Shown in pieces: positions 2,688 through 7,756 of a stretch of 25,883 nucleotides of DNA. The stretch comes from a virus, in the IMG/VR virus record IMGVR_UViG_3300035670_001133, positions 1 through 25,883 of that record; one strand, written 5' to 3'. The notes beneath the pieces were generated by a model. It had not been told where the DNA came from. It saw only the letters and a list, made by a program, of their open reading frames with translations, and did not search any database. How positions within the stretch are numbered: position 1 is the stretch's first letter; each line of letters opens with the position of its first letter. Made by a program: the position numbers and the translations under genes.

Positions 2688-2974
2688 TTCAACACTGGCA
2701 AGACCGATTGGACAAAACCATCACACGATGGCCAACAAACAAAGAGAAAATGGAAGCAATGGAGGCAGAGATCAAGGAGCTTCGCAAGTTCCACAAGTCC
2801 GCTTTTAAGATGCTGATTGCCGCTAATGAACGTGGAGACAAGTGGTACAAGCGTGCTGCAAGCGCAGAGGCAAAGTTGCGCCACAAAGAACGCAAGGAAA
2901 CCAAAGTAGAAAAGCCCACCGTTAGGCAGGCTTCAGGGCTTACTCACTGGATTGGTGGGAGTCCGTTCCACTGA
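2684..2974 (+). CDS. Hypothetical coiled-coil protein
   Basis: A 96-residue protein starting at GTG 2684, which overlaps the previous stop as GTGA. Longer readings starting upstream at 2639 are less likely. After a short aromatic start, residues about 18-70 are highly charged and heptad-like (NKEKMEAMEAEIKELRKFHK, then ANERGDKWYKRAASAEAKLR), indicating a coiled coil. The end is HWIGGSPFH. No function recognised. It is the last + strand gene and its 3' end overlaps the endolysin gene on the other strand by 35 bp. It also contains the terminator of the opposing operon (2905-2933). Confidence 0.6.
   Translation: MIQHWQDRLDKTITRWPTNKEKMEAMEAEIKELRKFHKSAFKMLIAANERGDKWYKRAASAEAKLRHKERKETKVEKPTVRQASGLTHWIGGSPFH
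2905..2933 (-). terminator. Intrinsic terminator of the late operon, inside an opposing gene
   Basis: On the - strand the RNA folds AAGCCUGCC-UAAC-GGUGGGCUU (nine base pairs, two of them G-U), followed by UU-CUACUUU; counted as a seven-pair stem it is followed by UUUU. It lies 7 bases past the endolysin stop at 2940. The two central pairs are C-A mismatches if read on the + strand, so the signal is specific for the - strand. It is encoded within the + strand coiled-coil gene. Confidence 0.6.
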
Positions 2975-3476
2975 GAAACAGGTCTTTTTCGGCTTGCCTT
3001 CGCCGCAAGAGACCTTTCAATACCTTGCCTCCGGCTTTTGACCAGTCCAGCAAAGAGTCGGCAGCAGCTTCCCATTCACCACGCAGAATCTTCTGGCGGC
3101 AGGTAGATCGCTGGAAGTTCCCAAGTCCTACATTGAAGCTAAACGCAACACAGGCATCAAATTTTGATTGATGCTCAGGACTATCGAGATTGGGAGCAAA
3201 TCGTAGAACACCACGTTCAAAAGATACGAGGTCATTCTTGAAAATTTCGACCAGTTCATCTTTCGACCAGACACGGTTGTCCTCCGGCTTGAGTTGGTAT
3301 TCGTTACGCAGAAGGCCAGTGTAGCCTTCCTTGCGAACGACAGGCAGCTTGATTTGGTCTTGATACAGGACATGGCCCCACCCGATCGTCCACATTGAGG
3401 CCGAACAAAGGTATGGCTTGTCTCTGTATCCCTCAAACTGGTGCATCAAATGGATGCCTTTGTCGGATGTTCTCAT
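2940..3476 (-). CDS. Endolysin, GH24 lysozyme (muramidase)
   Basis: A 178-residue phage lysozyme of the T4/P22/P1 type that cleaves the N-acetylmuramic acid to N-acetylglucosamine bond in peptidoglycan. The catalytic signature E15-x8-C24-x5-T30 is seen in FEGYRDKPYLCSASMWTIGWGH, with Cys in place of the Asp of T4 lysozyme, a known variant. The C-terminal lobe carries the family blocks FDACVAFSFNVGLGNF and LLRRRQAEKDLF. No signal peptide or SAR segment is present, so release should depend on the holin encoded just upstream. The start overlaps the holin stop (ATGA at 3473-3476). The 3' end overlaps the last + strand gene. Confidence 0.93.
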   Translation of the reverse strand: MRTSDKGIHLMHQFEGYRDKPYLCSASMWTIGWGHVLYQDQIKLPVVRKEGYTGLLRNEYQLKPEDNRVWSKDELVEIFKNDLVSFERGVLRFAPNLDSPEHQSKFDACVAFSFNVGLGNFQRSTCRQKILRGEWEAAADSLLDWSKAGGKVLKGLLRRRQAEKDLFLSGTDSHQSSE

Positions 3477-3997
3477 TTCTTCTGCCAGCCACGAGAGCCA
3501 AACCAGAACCCGATAATGCCGCCAAGCATGGACATTTCATCAGGCGTAAAGATGATGTCAGTGAACCGAATGAAATCATCCATCGTCTGCATCATGCCTG
3601 GGTGAGTCCAGCCATACCACGCAATCCAAGCGTTAATCCCGATCAACTCAAAGATAAACAGGTACGTCACAGTCGGACGCACAGTGCCGATGTAGTTAGC
3701 AACCCAACGGCTTGATTTCTCAAGAATTGCCTTGTCGTGGTCTTGTGCACCTTTGACCATTCCAGCTTCAGCTTCAGCCATTTGCGCTTGAGTCTGCATT
3801 GCAACCTGCTCGGTGCGGAACTCTTCAATCTTCTGTTGAGCAAGAAAGCCTTCCTTAGCCATTTGGATGTCACGCTCATTTGCCAGCTTTGCCAGCTCCT
3901 GTTCGTGCTTTTGGTCTGATTTGGCTTGGAAGAAGTCCAATAGTTTAGGCAGACCGCTGATAAGCAGACCGCCAAGGGTTGAGATTAGGGAAAGCAT
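3473..3997 (-). CDS. Holin, 3-TM GTA-type family
   Basis: A 174-residue membrane protein like the holins of gene-transfer-agent type (GTA_holin_3TM). A hydrophobic or amphipathic N-terminal segment (LSLISTLGGLLISGL) is followed by a charged coiled coil with many Gln, Glu and Lys. Two C-terminal membrane segments follow, around RPTVTYLFIFELIGINAWIAW and MLGGIIGFWFGSR. The final FWFGSRGWQKK is typical of this family. The ATG at 3997 has an excellent ribosome-binding site (TGAGGTAATCATG). A TTG at 4015 would extend it by six residues without one. It should open the inner membrane for the adjacent endolysin, whose start its stop overlaps. Confidence 0.88.
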   Translation of the reverse strand: MLSLISTLGGLLISGLPKLLDFFQAKSDQKHEQELAKLANERDIQMAKEGFLAQQKIEEFRTEQVAMQTQAQMAEAEAGMVKGAQDHDKAILEKSSRWVANYIGTVRPTVTYLFIFELIGINAWIAWYGWTHPGMMQTMDDFIRFTDIIFTPDEMSMLGGIIGFWFGSRGWQKK

Positions 3998-4004
3998 GAT
4001 TACC

Positions 4005-4484
4005 TCATTTAGCAAGTGGATTGTCTAACGCTCTTTGGACTTTGGCGTTTAGCCTGTCCTCAAGCTCCTTCATATCAGCCTTTTGGGACTGACGCAGTTG
4101 CTCACGACGAGACTCAAATCTCGCATCAGCACTGTCCAACATAGACCGGACTTTTTCCTCTTGCCGATCAGTCTTTTCGGTGTTTCGCTCAACACTACGC
4201 TCCAGGCGCATGATGTCGCTTCTCAGTCCATCCTTGATGTCTTTTGCGTACTTCAGCGATTCCTCAACCTTGGCGTCCATCACTTCCATCTTTTGCTGGT
4301 ATTCGCCAAGATCAAGGCCAGCGACCTCTTCAATCTTTTGGTACAGCACGAAACCACCGTACAAACCGCCTATAACGGTCGATAAGGCGGCCAATATTGC
4401 ACCGATGACCGCAGGTGTCATCTTGAGTCCAAGCACGTTAAATTGCTTGTTTTCCAGATTTTCTAATTGCTCGTCAACGTCCAT
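4005..4484 (-). CDS. Single-TM coiled-coil membrane protein, spanin-like candidate
   Basis: A 159-residue protein. A short acidic cytoplasmic-like N-terminus is followed by one membrane segment (about residues 25-48, Gly/Ala-rich, ending FVLYQ). About 110 residues of charged coiled coil follow (EVMDAKVEESLKYAKDIK, then DIMRLERSVERNTEKTDRQ). N-terminal anchor plus long periplasmic coiled coil is the layout of an inner-membrane spanin, and the gene lies directly upstream of holin and endolysin. No clear lipoprotein partner is nested in it, so this role is inferred. The ATG at 4484, two bases past the upstream stop with GAGAA before it, is preferred over a TTG at 4508. Confidence 0.65.
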   Translation of the reverse strand: MDVDEQLENLENKQFNVLGLKMTPAVIGAILAALSTVIGGLYGGFVLYQKIEEVAGLDLGEYQQKMEVMDAKVEESLKYAKDIKDGLRSDIMRLERSVERNTEKTDRQEEKVRSMLDSADARFESRREQLRQSQKADMKELEDRLNAKVQRALDNPLAK

Positions 4485-4485
4485 A

Positions 4486-4896
4486 TCAGTTCTCGAATTT
4501 CTTGCCAACTTGGAGGTTCTTCAGTGCTTTTAGCTCTGCCTCAAGTTTCTCAACCTCAATTCGCTTTTTGGTCAACTCAAGCTGATACAGAGAATTGCAG
4601 TTGATTCGCTCTGGTACATTGCCAAACGGCACAATGATTCGCGCATAAACGCCAATATCCTTCGACCGTGGCTGGTTAGGGTCAGCAGACGAAAAAACAC
4701 TGTTTGCATTGTTGACAATCCCTGTTACACCAAACTCAACGTTTGTCTCGCCACCGATTGCATTAGAGCAATCAAGATCGCCAGCACGGAACTTGTCAGA
4801 CTGATAATTTGAGTACCCATAAGGCATTTGCAGGCTCAGTGAGTTTTGAGCCAGTGCGCCAGTACATACAAACATCAGTGCGACAGCTTTGAGCAT
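4486..4896 (-). CDS. Exported hypothetical protein with C-terminal coiled coil
   Basis: A 136-residue protein with a clear Sec signal peptide (MLKAVALMFVCTGALA, likely cleaved after Ala16 before QNS). The mature part starts with an aromatic/Asn-rich stretch, has two Cys (in LDCSNA and INCNSLY) that could form a disulfide, and contains a beta-like segment GVYARIIVPFG. It ends in a charged helix (LTKKRIEVEKLEAELKALK) likely to be a coiled coil. It is the last of five consecutive exported proteins and overlaps the preceding one by 22 bases. Whether it is periplasmic, outer-membrane associated or virion-bound is unknown. Confidence 0.7.
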   Translation of the reverse strand: MLKAVALMFVCTGALAQNSLSLQMPYGYSNYQSDKFRAGDLDCSNAIGGETNVEFGVTGIVNNANSVFSSADPNQPRSKDIGVYARIIVPFGNVPERINCNSLYQLELTKKRIEVEKLEAELKALKNLQVGKKFEN

Positions 4897-5246
4897 ATCT
4901 TTGATGACACGGACGCACCTTTGTCCGCATCACTCCTGAGCTTTGATTGTGAACAGACATAAACAGCGTCTTTAACGTCCTCATCACGGATGTAAACATC
5001 AAGTTTTATCCGACCGAGATACTTCAGGTTAATGATGCTGTACTGAGTGACAAAATGAATCGGCTTGAAGTCTTTAGTAAAAACGCCAATCTCGTAATAC
5101 TCAACATCGCTTCTGCGATTGAACATTTCCAGAGATACCTTTTGCACGCCAGCAACATGAGACGTTTGCAGCTTAGGATAAGCCGGAGTCATTTCATGAG
5201 CTTGGGCGGTTGTTATCGCCAGCGCGAGAATCAGTTTGCGATACAT
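4875..5246 (-). CDS. Exported protein, beta-sandwich/chaperone-like appearance
   Basis: A 123-residue protein with a Sec signal peptide (MYRKLILALAITTAQA, likely cut before HEMTP). The mature part reads like a single immunoglobulin-type beta sandwich. It alternates strands such as VQKVSLEMFNRR, VEYYEIGVFTKDFKPI, LGRIKLDVYIRDED and AVYVCSQSKL, then has a second Cys in SKICSKL that could pair with the first. The strand order with an Asn-Arg turn recalls the first domain of pilus chaperones, but the diagnostic FGS-type motifs are not evident, so this is only a resemblance. It overlaps the upstream gene by 16 bases and the downstream gene by 22. Confidence 0.65.
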   Translation of the reverse strand: MYRKLILALAITTAQAHEMTPAYPKLQTSHVAGVQKVSLEMFNRRSDVEYYEIGVFTKDFKPIHFVTQYSIINLKYLGRIKLDVYIRDEDVKDAVYVCSQSKLRSDADKGASVSSKICSKLSH

Positions 5247-5719
5247 TCGGCTTGAACCACTGCGCGATATGTGCCACCAGGAAATGCTTTGCCATAGCCG
5301 TATTTAGCCGTTGACGAACTCTTGAACCAAGTAGAGCCAGCAACCAGTAAGTTGAACTCAGTTGTATTGTTGTAGGTGACTTTGCTGGTTTCATAAGTTG
5401 ACATTGCAGCATCGCTTACCGTCTTGACAGATGTGTCACCAGTCCAGACAACAGTGTCATTCAGCGACGGGCTTGTGGAGAATGATGAAGGCGTAGTAAT
5501 CCGAGCCTTGTACGCACCAGCGAGAGATACGTCATATCGGACAACAGGAACAACACCGCCATCAGCAGGCAGTGTGCTTAATTTGTCAGCAGTCGGGTTG
5601 CCATAAACGCCAGCCGTATCCGTTGTAATGACGCACTTTGATTGGACGTTACCAATAATCGGAACTTCCTCTGCATGACAGGTGGCTGCAAACAGGGCAG
5701 CAAGAATAACGTACTTCAT
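5231..5719 (-). CDS. Exported protein with terminal Cys pair, pilin-like appearance
   Basis: A 162-residue protein with a Sec signal peptide (MKYVILAALFAATCHA, likely cut before EEVP). The mature part is Ser/Thr-rich and probably all beta. Cys29 (VQSKCVITTD) lies near the start and the last Cys near the end (VVQAECIAN); a disulfide between them would tie first and last strands, as in many secreted sandwich domains and pilin-like subunits. It has a strong ribosome-binding site (TGAGGTAAACATG). No enzymatic motif is visible. The pilin comparison is a visual impression only. The next exported protein overlaps its 3' end by 16 bases. Confidence 0.65.
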   Translation of the reverse strand: MKYVILAALFAATCHAEEVPIIGNVQSKCVITTDTAGVYGNPTADKLSTLPADGGVVPVVRYDVSLAGAYKARITTPSSFSTSPSLNDTVVWTGDTSVKTVSDAAMSTYETSKVTYNNTTEFNLLVAGSTWFKSSSTAKYGYGKAFPGGTYRAVVQAECIAN

Positions 5720-5721
5720 GT

Positions 5722-6525
5722 TTACCTCACATATTGTTGATTGACCATCTTGTCGTGCAGTATTTGCTGCGCCAAGCCATTACGTAAACCAGAACGGTTT
5801 TCAGGGATTTTAGTGTCTTTGAGTGAAATAGTCTCACGATACACACCTCCATTCAATGAAAGTGAGTAATAAGCGGTTAAGTTAGTGATGCCATTCAACG
5901 ACTGCAACAGTTGAGATTGACCAACAGCCTCAGCATCTTTGGCTACTTGGATTTTGGTTTCTTTGGCTTCTTTGAGCTTTGTTTCTTTGTACTCTTGCTC
6001 TGTCTTTTGCTTGGAGATTTTTACAGCATCGTCATCAAGTGCTGAGTAGACCTGAATCTCTGGAATCTTTGGCACGTAGTTCGGACAGCCTGGTACTGGT
6101 TCAAAGCACGGGTCTATTCTGTATGAATACGCTACCTTTGCATCTTTGACGGAGCCTTGGCCTTCAACGTCAATTGAGCCACGACCCCAGTATTGAATCG
6201 GTATGTTGTCCACAGGAATCACTTTACTGATCGGTGTTGCAGGTCTACCAGTCCAGTCATCAGTCTCACGGAATATGTATCCGTTGCCTTTGGCGTTTAG
6301 GTTTTGCACGTGGACAAGCATTGCGTCTGTCGGATTTTTGACAGGCGTGTATTGGTAGATCACACCGTTAACGGATAGACCTGATTCTTTTGGCAGGATT
6401 GACATATCCCATGACAAGCCACCATAAGCAGCATTGCCAGTGACACCGTAGACGTACTCAGAGTAAGAAGAGCAGGCCCAAAGCGCCAAGGACAGAGCCA
6501 ATGCCGAACGTAGTCTTTTCAGCAT
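5722..6525 (-). CDS. Exported hypothetical protein, possible lipoprotein
   Basis: A 267-residue protein. The N-terminus is a basic, hydrophobic signal sequence (MLKRLRSALALSLALWACSS). Cys18 in LWAC could be a lipidation site, although Trp at -2 is not standard, so ordinary signal peptidase cleavage is also possible. The central part is beta-rich with a YWGRGSIDVEGQGSVKDAKV segment and two Cys in PCFEPVPGCPNY. Residues about 165-205 are a Lys/Glu-rich helix, probably a coiled coil (KISKQKTEQEYKETKLKEAK). Function unknown. Its first 68 bases overlap the upstream gene in another frame. It is the longest member of the exported cassette. Confidence 0.68.
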   Translation of the reverse strand: MLKRLRSALALSLALWACSSYSEYVYGVTGNAAYGGLSWDMSILPKESGLSVNGVIYQYTPVKNPTDAMLVHVQNLNAKGNGYIFRETDDWTGRPATPISKVIPVDNIPIQYWGRGSIDVEGQGSVKDAKVAYSYRIDPCFEPVPGCPNYVPKIPEIQVYSALDDDAVKISKQKTEQEYKETKLKEAKETKIQVAKDAEAVGQSQLLQSLNGITNLTAYYSLSLNGGVYRETISLKDTKIPENRSGLRNGLAQQILHDKMVNQQYVR

Positions 6526-6964
6526 CTTTCTTCACTTCTGGTTTTTCTTTGGAATTGGCCTTCCAAGCGAGTTTGGCTTCAGGCCCGATCATCCCATCGT
6601 AAGGACAAGGTGTGCCAGCGTTCATCATGGCATCAAAGACGTTTTTGTCTTGACACATCACAGAGACAGCCGCTACCTTCATGCCCATGTCATAAAGCGT
6701 TTTGGCGTTCTTCAGGCGGATACAGTTTTCTTCAGTGAATACCGTACCAGCAGAGATACCAAGAATCTGGGTTTGCACTGCGCCAGCAACTCCAACCGTA
6801 CACAGGTCAGAAGTGGCAGCAGAGCCGATTTGAGGCGATATTGCAGACGGTGGAGGGCTACGCACCGTTGTGGTCATTGAACCCGTTGTAGTGACGTTTG
6901 AGATCGTTTCAATGGGTTGAGCAAATGCCGTAGGTATCAGGAGAGTAATCAGCAGCTTACGCAT
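6458..6964 (-). CDS. Exported Cys-containing protein with C-terminal membrane anchor
   Basis: A 168-residue protein beginning with a signal peptide (MRKLLITLLIPTAFA, likely cut before QPIE). The ATG at 6964 has a near-perfect GGAGGTG ribosome-binding site and is preferred over a start ten codons upstream. The mature part has a Thr-rich region, a Pro-rich SPPPSAISP stretch, and a conserved-looking core with four Cys (DLCTV, ENCIRL, VMCQD, TPCPYD). A Lys/Glu linker leads to a hydrophobic end (FGIGSVLGALGLLFLL) that probably anchors it in a membrane. I recall similar proteins in uncultured aquatic phages but know no function. It heads the five-gene exported cassette. Confidence 0.72.
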   Translation of the reverse strand: MRKLLITLLIPTAFAQPIETISNVTTTGSMTTTVRSPPPSAISPQIGSAATSDLCTVGVAGAVQTQILGISAGTVFTEENCIRLKNAKTLYDMGMKVAAVSVMCQDKNVFDAMMNAGTPCPYDGMIGPEAKLAWKANSKEKPEVKKDAEKTTFGIGSVLGALGLLFLL

Positions 6965-7050
6965 AACACCTCCAGCACTATTTTGATTGTCCAAACCGAC
7001 ATCACTACAACAAGTGCAGCAGCAATGAAGGCAAGGACAAAATCACTCAT
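6949..7050 (-). CDS. Small single-TM peptide (33 aa)
   Basis: A 33-residue reading frame starting at an ATG that overlaps the stop of the structural gene upstream (ATGAGTGA). It ends 16 bases inside the next exported-protein gene, so it fills the only gap in this part of the operon. The product is almost entirely one hydrophobic helix (about residues 4-20, FVLAFIAAALVVVMSVW) followed by IKIVLEVLCVSC. There is no strong ribosome-binding site, so expression would depend on coupling with the upstream gene. It could be a small membrane effector, or simply a leader that couples translation. Confidence 0.42.
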   Translation of the reverse strand: MSDFVLAFIAAALVVVMSVWTIKIVLEVLCVSC

Positions 7051-7756
7051 TGCTTACAGAATAAGCGTTGACGTAAACAGAGATTTCGTTTTCTGAGCTA
7101 GATGACTTGGCTTCAAAAGCAAAATCCGTCTTCGGCTCAATCTTGAAAGGCACTGGAACAGAGTAGTTAACCTGACCAACAGCCCAAGTCGCTTGCCAGA
7201 ATCGCATGATTGCGCTTCCAAATGTCTTTTTATAGACGCGACCAGTCAAGTATTTGTTTGAGTTAACAGTGCCTGACAAGAAGCTAACAGAAGTGATATA
7301 CAGCGATTCGTTTGCGCCAGTTGAATAAATGCCAGCCTGAGCATATCCTGTTTCAGCTTCAATGTAAGCGTATGTCGTACCACTCTTGCTGACAGTTACA
7401 TTACCGCTTTGCGTTCCAGAGACAACATAACAAAAGTTGATTCGCAAAAATGACTTTGTAGTTGTTACTGGAGTTGTTCCGGTCAAAGTGATGTCTTCGC
7501 TGATCGGTAGCCAATCTGTGTCCAAGCCAACAAGACGAACAATGCAAGTATCGGCAGCAGAGGATACCAAGTCCATCGTCATTGCAGACGCAGGAAATGT
7601 GTATATCCCACCACCATCGTTCATCACGGTTTCAAACGATGTTGCAATCGTTCGGTTAAAACCAAAGATGTTTACAGGCGTGACGTTGTTGTAAAAGCCA
7701 CGGGCAATGTCGCAAAATGACCCAAGATGCTGGTGTTCGTCAAATTGGTAAGCCAT
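7043..7756 (-). CDS. Putative virion structural protein
   Basis: A 237-residue beta-rich protein without signal peptide or membrane segment. It contains blocks seen in structural proteins of uncultured aquatic phages: NIFGFNRTI, then a GGGIYTFP stretch, SSAADT, VRLVGLDTDWLPISEDI, and a run of short Ser/Thr-rich strands. These suggest a head- or tail-attached fibre or decoration protein, by resemblance only. Its ATG at 7756 has AAAGGTG before it. It lies between small membrane-protein genes and the exported cassette. Exact virion location is unknown. Confidence 0.6.
   Translation of the reverse strand: MAYQFDEHQHLGSFCDIARGFYNNVTPVNIFGFNRTIATSFETVMNDGGGIYTFPASAMTMDLVSSAADTCIVRLVGLDTDWLPISEDITLTGTTPVTTTKSFLRINFCYVVSGTQSGNVTVSKSGTTYAYIEAETGYAQAGIYSTGANESLYITSVSFLSGTVNSNKYLTGRVYKKTFGSAIMRFWQATWAVGQVNYSVPVPFKIEPKTDFAFEAKSSSSENEISVYVNAYSVSNE

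Follow-up and report, generated by a model that had tools for sequence, protein, structure and literature searches.

Tailed phages carry a cassette of six genes that is a conserved, transferable unit of a kind not described before; five of the genes encode consecutive exported proteins (E1 to E5), the sixth encodes a coiled-coil protein with an N-terminal transmembrane helix (TMCC), and the open-licence papers that we searched hold no description of the set. Our preferred reading, held tentatively and with a little less than even confidence, is that the cassette supplies a phage-encoded chaperone/pilin-like pair within a multi-protein assembly that would be built in the host envelope late in infection.

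The window, by which we mean the whole 25.9 kb virus record that was analysed, has its late genes on the minus strand, and its portal shares 49-52% identity with the portals of the small pelagiphages HTVC026P, 111P, 112P and 202P. E1 to E5, five minus-strand genes, occupy positions 6964 to 4486, downstream of those for the tail and tailspike. E1 (6458-6964) starts with an ATG (MRKLL) and comprises a signal peptide, a low-complexity stretch, a conserved four-cysteine domain and a hydrophobic C-terminal tail. E2 (5722-6525) combines a signal peptide with a β-rich domain, a helical or coiled region and the conserved C-terminal block LAQQxLHxxMVxxQY. In E3 (5231-5719) the signal peptide precedes a predicted pilin-like Ig-type sandwich with a free N-terminal extension, and in E4 (4875-5246) it precedes a single predicted PapD-like fold, that of a periplasmic chaperone N-domain. 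E5 (4486-4896) has a signal peptide, a small two-cysteine domain and a C-terminal amphipathic helix. TMCC (4005-4484, minus strand) carries its transmembrane helix in front of a long coiled coil that is predicted to face the periplasm and ends in NPLA, an i-spanin-like layout. It is followed on the same strand by a holin-like membrane protein (3473-3997; phrog_6637) and an endolysin (2940-3476; Phage_lysozyme, PF00959, E=1.4e-31), both of them neighbours outside the conserved unit. E1 and E2 overlap by 68 nt, E3 and E4 by 16 nt and E4 and E5 by 22 nt, while gaps of 2 nt and 1 nt separate E2 from E3 and E5 from TMCC. A 33-codon open reading frame on the minus strand (6949-7050, MSDFVLAFIAAALVVVMSVWTIKIVLEVLCVSC) begins at the stop of the gene at 7043-7756 and overlaps the E1 start; its product would be a single-pass membrane peptide.

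By sequence, all five N-termini read as Sec-type signal peptides: a short n-region with positive charge leads into a hydrophobic core, and an A-x-A-like site follows. A home-made von Heijne-like score gives E1 to E5 of the window values of 3.7-4.5, and among the 26 other window genes one gets to 3.1. Among distinct homologues, whose start codons were chosen partly by the signal-peptide score itself, 241 of 250 score at least 3.0 (E1 59/60, E2 50/56, E3 49/49, E4 44/45, E5 39/40). Identical picking on 770 non-cassette genes from the same contigs served as the control; 13.4% of these pass, so that five signal peptides in a row are expected by chance at a rate of about 4e-5. The starts of the mature proteins are conserved among homologues (for E4, HEMTPTYPK) and the signal sequences themselves are divergent. 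In the alignments, the mature parts contain invariant cysteines (C55, C81, C104 and C120 in E1, C29 and C159 in E3, C98 and C118 in E4, C43 and C100 in E5), which would fit an oxidising compartment. A preliminary description had proposed five adjacent genes for exported proteins, joined by overlapping or two-base-spaced junctions, each with a signal sequence and with cysteine pairs in the products; the reading frames were found where it placed them, and the measured junctions, the scores and the alignments bear out the rest.

Searches seeded with E1 and with E5 found at least 121 loci with all six genes, at least 80 of which are non-redundant by E2. Where the search started from E1 (80 loci among the matches listed), E2 to E5 follow wherever enough DNA is present, and TMCC follows in every locus except L063, whose DNA stops 1 kb past E5. 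The search with E5 is independent of E1. Among its listed matches, and counting as testable any locus with enough DNA to hold the gene or genes in question, E1 to E5 are complete and in order in 46/46 loci; gene by gene, E4 is present in 72/72, E3 in 66/66, E2 in 61/61, E1 in 57/57 and TMCC in 71/71 testable loci. The holin family of the window occurs in 0/71 and its lysozyme family in 8/71 of the E5-seeded loci among the matches listed. Set against the constant presence of TMCC, these counts define the unit as six genes beside which the lysis genes are exchangeable.

The suggestion that the set is inherited together in relatives is therefore confirmed, co-occurrence being near-absolute, and joint assembly of the products, first raised as a possibility, is likely because the cassette is inherited as one unit. 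The earlier picture of five genes fused to a lysis operon has to be amended: the five genes for exported proteins are co-inherited, but the unit includes TMCC, and the junction with lysis genes, which holds in the window and in Vibrio phages, does not extend to the window's own holin and lysozyme families in most other loci. The supposed rarity of such cassettes is wrong for aquatic phages, since IMG/VR contains at least 598 relatives of E5; those of E1 number at least 584. The cassette is present in small-siphovirus, podovirus-like and T4-like contigs with different adjoining lysis genes, and is flanked by T4-type gp59, gp32, late co-activator and terminase families, by an unrelated portal, or by a podovirus-type portal and capsid. 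From this diversity we conclude that it moves between phage lineages. A bacterial operon was considered and rejected: the genome collection gave four matches only, all to MAG contigs that resemble binned phage contigs, and one bin accounts for three of them. That bin, Rhodobacteraceae Water_Bin34 (among L091-L094), has three different cassette-bearing contigs and appears to contain several phage contigs.

The AF2 model of E4, built with 39 homologues, has a pLDDT of 85.4. In a Foldseek search against the PDB, 14 of the 16 matches at E<=1e-3 are chaperones of chaperone-usher systems (FaeE at 9.7e-5, SafB, DraB, PapD, SfaE), with TMq values of 0.5-0.67; the remaining matches are to a Cu-only SOD and to a PapD-like domain of CEP192. 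Judged by the model and these top matches, E4 qualifies as a PapD-type N-terminal Ig-like domain. Against viral models the best match was a 133-aa protein (1.5e-6), and the search was otherwise uninformative. The cysteines C98 and C118, invariant in 39/39 homologues, fall on the final pair of predicted strands, with a loop shorter than that typical of FGL chaperones; residue 120, two positions beyond C118, is basic (K or R) in 39/39. FGL chaperones contain an F1-G1 disulfide, and a G1 lysine is conserved in chaperones (PMC4133393); C98/C118 and the basic residue at 120 would be their counterparts in E4. An invariant N-terminal arginine, which would correspond to the conserved cleft arginine on strand A1 of chaperones, was not found in the 39-homologue alignment, and the second, C-terminal Ig-like domain is absent, E4 being a single domain of 123 aa and its Vibrio type one of about 134 aa. 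None of the 39 homologues matched PapD_N (PF00345) in Pfam, and hhalign comparison with PapD_N, using profiles from bacterial genomes, gave a non-significant 0.2-0.6%. The Vibrio E4 type shows a weak but specific lean towards PapD_N (hhalign 14-15%, other families mostly <1%).

The AF2 model of E3 (41 homologues, pLDDT 89.5) is a sandwich in which residues 17-28 are unpaired and of low confidence. Its Foldseek matches are weak (best E 3.1e-3, TM 0.4-0.5); the best is the PapG pilin domain, followed by CfaB, CS17, CsuA/B, Caf1, FimG and PapK, and the list also mixes in non-pilin Ig-type folds, namely staphylococcal adhesins and adaptor domains. A donor-strand motif written after E3 had been seen, V-x-I-x-G-x-V-x-x-x-C, is present in 65/68 E3 homologues, in 2/958 background ORFs and in FimA, FimF and FimG of E. 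coli K-12; the Vibrio E3 types fail its strict form, their glycine being missing. In pilins a disulfide joins strands A and B (PMC5625045). This A-B disulfide is absent in E3, where C29 lies on the first strand and C159 on the last. The hhalign comparison of E3 with SCPU, again with profiles from bacterial genomes, gave 0.2-0.3%, which is not significant, and Pfam, PDB and profile searches returned no sequence-level link of the cassette proteins to pilins or chaperones. The β-rich cores mentioned in the preliminary description thus acquire a specific form from the two models, that of a chaperone-like and pilin-like pair, although their sequence links to those families are not significant.

From the models we infer, in a form open to test, that E4 and E3 would act as chaperone and subunit. 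E4 would be a PapD-like periplasmic chaperone of one domain and E3 the pilin-like client that it serves; while folding, E3 would borrow the last strand of E4, and the free N-terminal strand of E3 could then complete another subunit or partner, in a donor-strand exchange that works with no usher. TMCC would tie the assembly to the inner membrane, perhaps together with E1, and E2 and E5 might bridge outward. A wider proposal is that a transferable chaperone/pilin-like machine with no usher is common to tailed phages from many unrelated lineages and that, joined by E1, E2, E5 and the membrane-anchored coiled coil, it builds a late structure that spans the envelope or lies on the surface. This is more speculative, and we give it well under half of our confidence. 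The main challenge to the pairing, and to the pairing only since any role is compatible with it, is that E3 and E4 could be ordinary Ig-like and PapD-superfamily domains with no chaperone-client relation. We take this to be a serious possibility, though not the probable one: the E3 Foldseek scores are weak and the profile matches not significant, yet two adjacent, co-inherited genes independently indicate both halves of the same system, and the cysteine and donor-strand patterns agree with it.

The remaining members gave fewer structural clues. E1 to E5 matched no named family in Pfam, NCBIfam or PHROG, and a profile-based PDB sequence search returned nothing for the cassette proteins. E1 matches PHROG 20531 and E5 PHROG 37374, while the Vibrio E3 and E4 types correspond to 25895 and 25455; all four are labelled as of unknown function, and PHROG does not note their linkage into a cassette. 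The hydrophobic C-terminal tail of E1 is found in 80/87 homologues and overlaps the region coding for the E2 signal peptide, with an E1/E2 overlap of 62-80 nt in all 80 loci measured. One stretch of that length (6458-6525 in the window, and likewise in 80 relatives) thus encodes the E1 tail in one frame and the E2 signal peptide in another, and this constant dual-coding overlap may couple the translation of both. The C-terminal block of E2 recurs in gp53 of pelagiphage HTVC115P (hhalign 81%). The large exported protein of pelagiphages was considered as an E2 homologue, but the relation is confined to this block of gp53; the other three proteins are unrelated by profile. In Roseobacter phage CRP-810 (L089), the "OmpA family protein" at 5827-6582 is homologous to E1 and matches no OmpA family in Pfam, and the "lysozyme" at 7213-7635 is a TMCC homologue; both look misannotated.

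Parts of the cassette also occur separately in cultured phages. In pelagiphages an E1 homologue occurs together with a large exported protein and one that is TMCC-like, and E3 to E5 are missing; Vibrio phages have homologues of E3, E4 and E5 only. The Vibrio triad was found through a weak E5 match and then supported by profile comparison with the cassette (E3 95.6%, 1.3e-8; E4 84.5%, 7e-6; E5 98.2%, 3.5e-14), in which all off-diagonal pairs stay below 1.5%. E3-E4-E5 is a transferable reduced core. The E3-type and E4-type genes occur in 179 Vibrio phage records each, with near-identical host breakdowns, and records with triad genes include the T5-like Demerecviridae Ceto and VPG01 as well as pVp-1. 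A search of IMG/VR with a single Vibrio E4 sequence and strict patterns found no relatives. The triad lies between tail-fibre-like genes and holin/endolysin genes, the order in Ceto and VPG01 being a fibre-side gene, the triad, small genes, holin and endolysin. In these records (L212-L218, e.g. Ceto, NC_042094) each triad gene overlaps the next, and several records annotate gene parts or wrong starts. Adjoining the triad is a small lipoprotein gene with a clear lipobox (phrog_16916; 6106-6282 in L212, 5149-5352 in L215, 5194-5352 in L218), whose product could be an o-spanin-like partner. Two pelagiphages carry a gene for an HlyC-like lysine acyltransferase, annotated as "toxin-activating", among their tail genes (L085, 21400-21813; L083, 11396-11845), and an HlyC-family gene also lies downstream of one cassette; acylation of tail proteins is a possible function.

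What could such an assembly be for? Its gene position, between tail-fibre and holin/endolysin genes, makes a function at the final stage of infection the likeliest, with the assembly opening or bridging the outer membrane during lysis as spanins do, an assignment that nevertheless stays well below an even chance. A small membrane protein is encoded among the first four genes downstream in 44/64 non-redundant loci, compared with 20/67 upstream; together with the inner-membrane coiled-coil layout of TMCC, this favours an end-of-infection role at the envelope. The endolysins near cassettes belong to different families. In T4-like contigs the cassette is not adjacent to recognised lysis genes, and this weakens the case.

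After lysis, the next candidate is surface or receptor masking, which we consider doubtful. In this reading, which includes superinfection exclusion, the exported proteins would coat or block the cell surface and so keep sister phages, or progeny released among debris, from adsorbing. The position of the cassette speaks for such a function: in Vibrio phages it comes immediately after tail-fibre genes, and in the window it lies downstream of the tailspike region. So does the precedent of T5, in which the gene of a receptor-blocking lipoprotein adjoins the receptor-binding gene, and a pilin-like protein of adhesin type would be suited to coating a surface. These families, however, persist across phages with unrelated tail fibres, which makes a receptor-specific blocker unlikely; moreover, almost no homologue has a lipobox, and the cassette shows an obligate link to a coiled-coil protein of the inner membrane. 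Superinfection exclusion or receptor masking is, in our estimation, an unlikely explanation.

It is less probable still that five unrelated exported proteins merely share a late transcript and have separate minor roles, such as lysis-timing signals, with no single assembly. The separate occurrence of the E1 type in pelagiphages and of E3 to E5 in Vibrio phages is in keeping with this, and implies at least two sub-modules, but the co-occurrence in 46/46 and 71/71 loci and the constant order over divergent contigs are hard to explain without a joint function. That the cassette stays whole and ordered across differing virions and lysis genes means that this function must be generally useful. A virion role, with E3 and its partners exported, oxidised in the periplasm and attached to virions during lysis or afterwards, for instance to decorate the tail or capsid, is very unlikely: the late position beside tail genes and the frequency of Ig-like folds on virions would suit it, but virions assemble in the cytoplasm, so that a periplasmic chaperone and an inner-membrane coiled coil would lack a role, and the cassette is common to genomes of siphovirus-, podovirus- and T4-like type, whose virions differ.

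The comparison with known systems reveals partial likenesses. TMCC appears to share with the two-component spanins (Rz/Rz1) the i-spanin layout of an N-terminal transmembrane helix and a periplasmic coiled coil, and the cassette often lies beside holin-like and endolysin genes. Its match to an Rz profile is negligible (phrog_4297, E=0.72), and unlike those spanins the cassette has five exported partners and no outer-membrane lipoprotein; a search for an o-spanin lipoprotein found a lipobox in just 0-2 homologues per cassette family. The receptor-blocking lipoproteins of the T5 Llp type are likewise exported phage proteins encoded beside tail-fibre genes, whereas the cassette products are neither lipoproteins nor encoded by single genes, and they are conserved over phages with different fibres.

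The resemblance to chaperone-usher pili of the FGL and archaic types (PapD/Caf1M/CsuC with FimA/Caf1/CsuA-B) is in the predicted folds, a gene for a PapD-like fold adjoining that of an exported Ig-like subunit. As in the chaperones of these systems, E4 is predicted to have a cysteine pair on the F and G strands and a basic G-strand residue, and as in their subunits E3 would have a free N-terminal extension with alternating hydrophobics and a glycine. The cassette differs in its one-domain E4, the other placement of the E3 cysteines, the lack of significant sequence similarity and the lack of an usher, for which neither the ORFs of the cassette and window nor the Vibrio neighbourhoods offered a candidate. 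With no usher, no second chaperone domain, no A-B disulfide and no match in sequence, we do not claim membership of the chaperone-usher class. The cassette is also set apart by being carried by phages and by having additional exported partners. If the chaperone/pilin reading is true, this would be, as far as we know from the literature searched, the first described donor-strand assembly that a tailed phage brings to the host envelope, and since the Vibrio version sits in cultured phages that infect laboratory strains, the question can be tested now.
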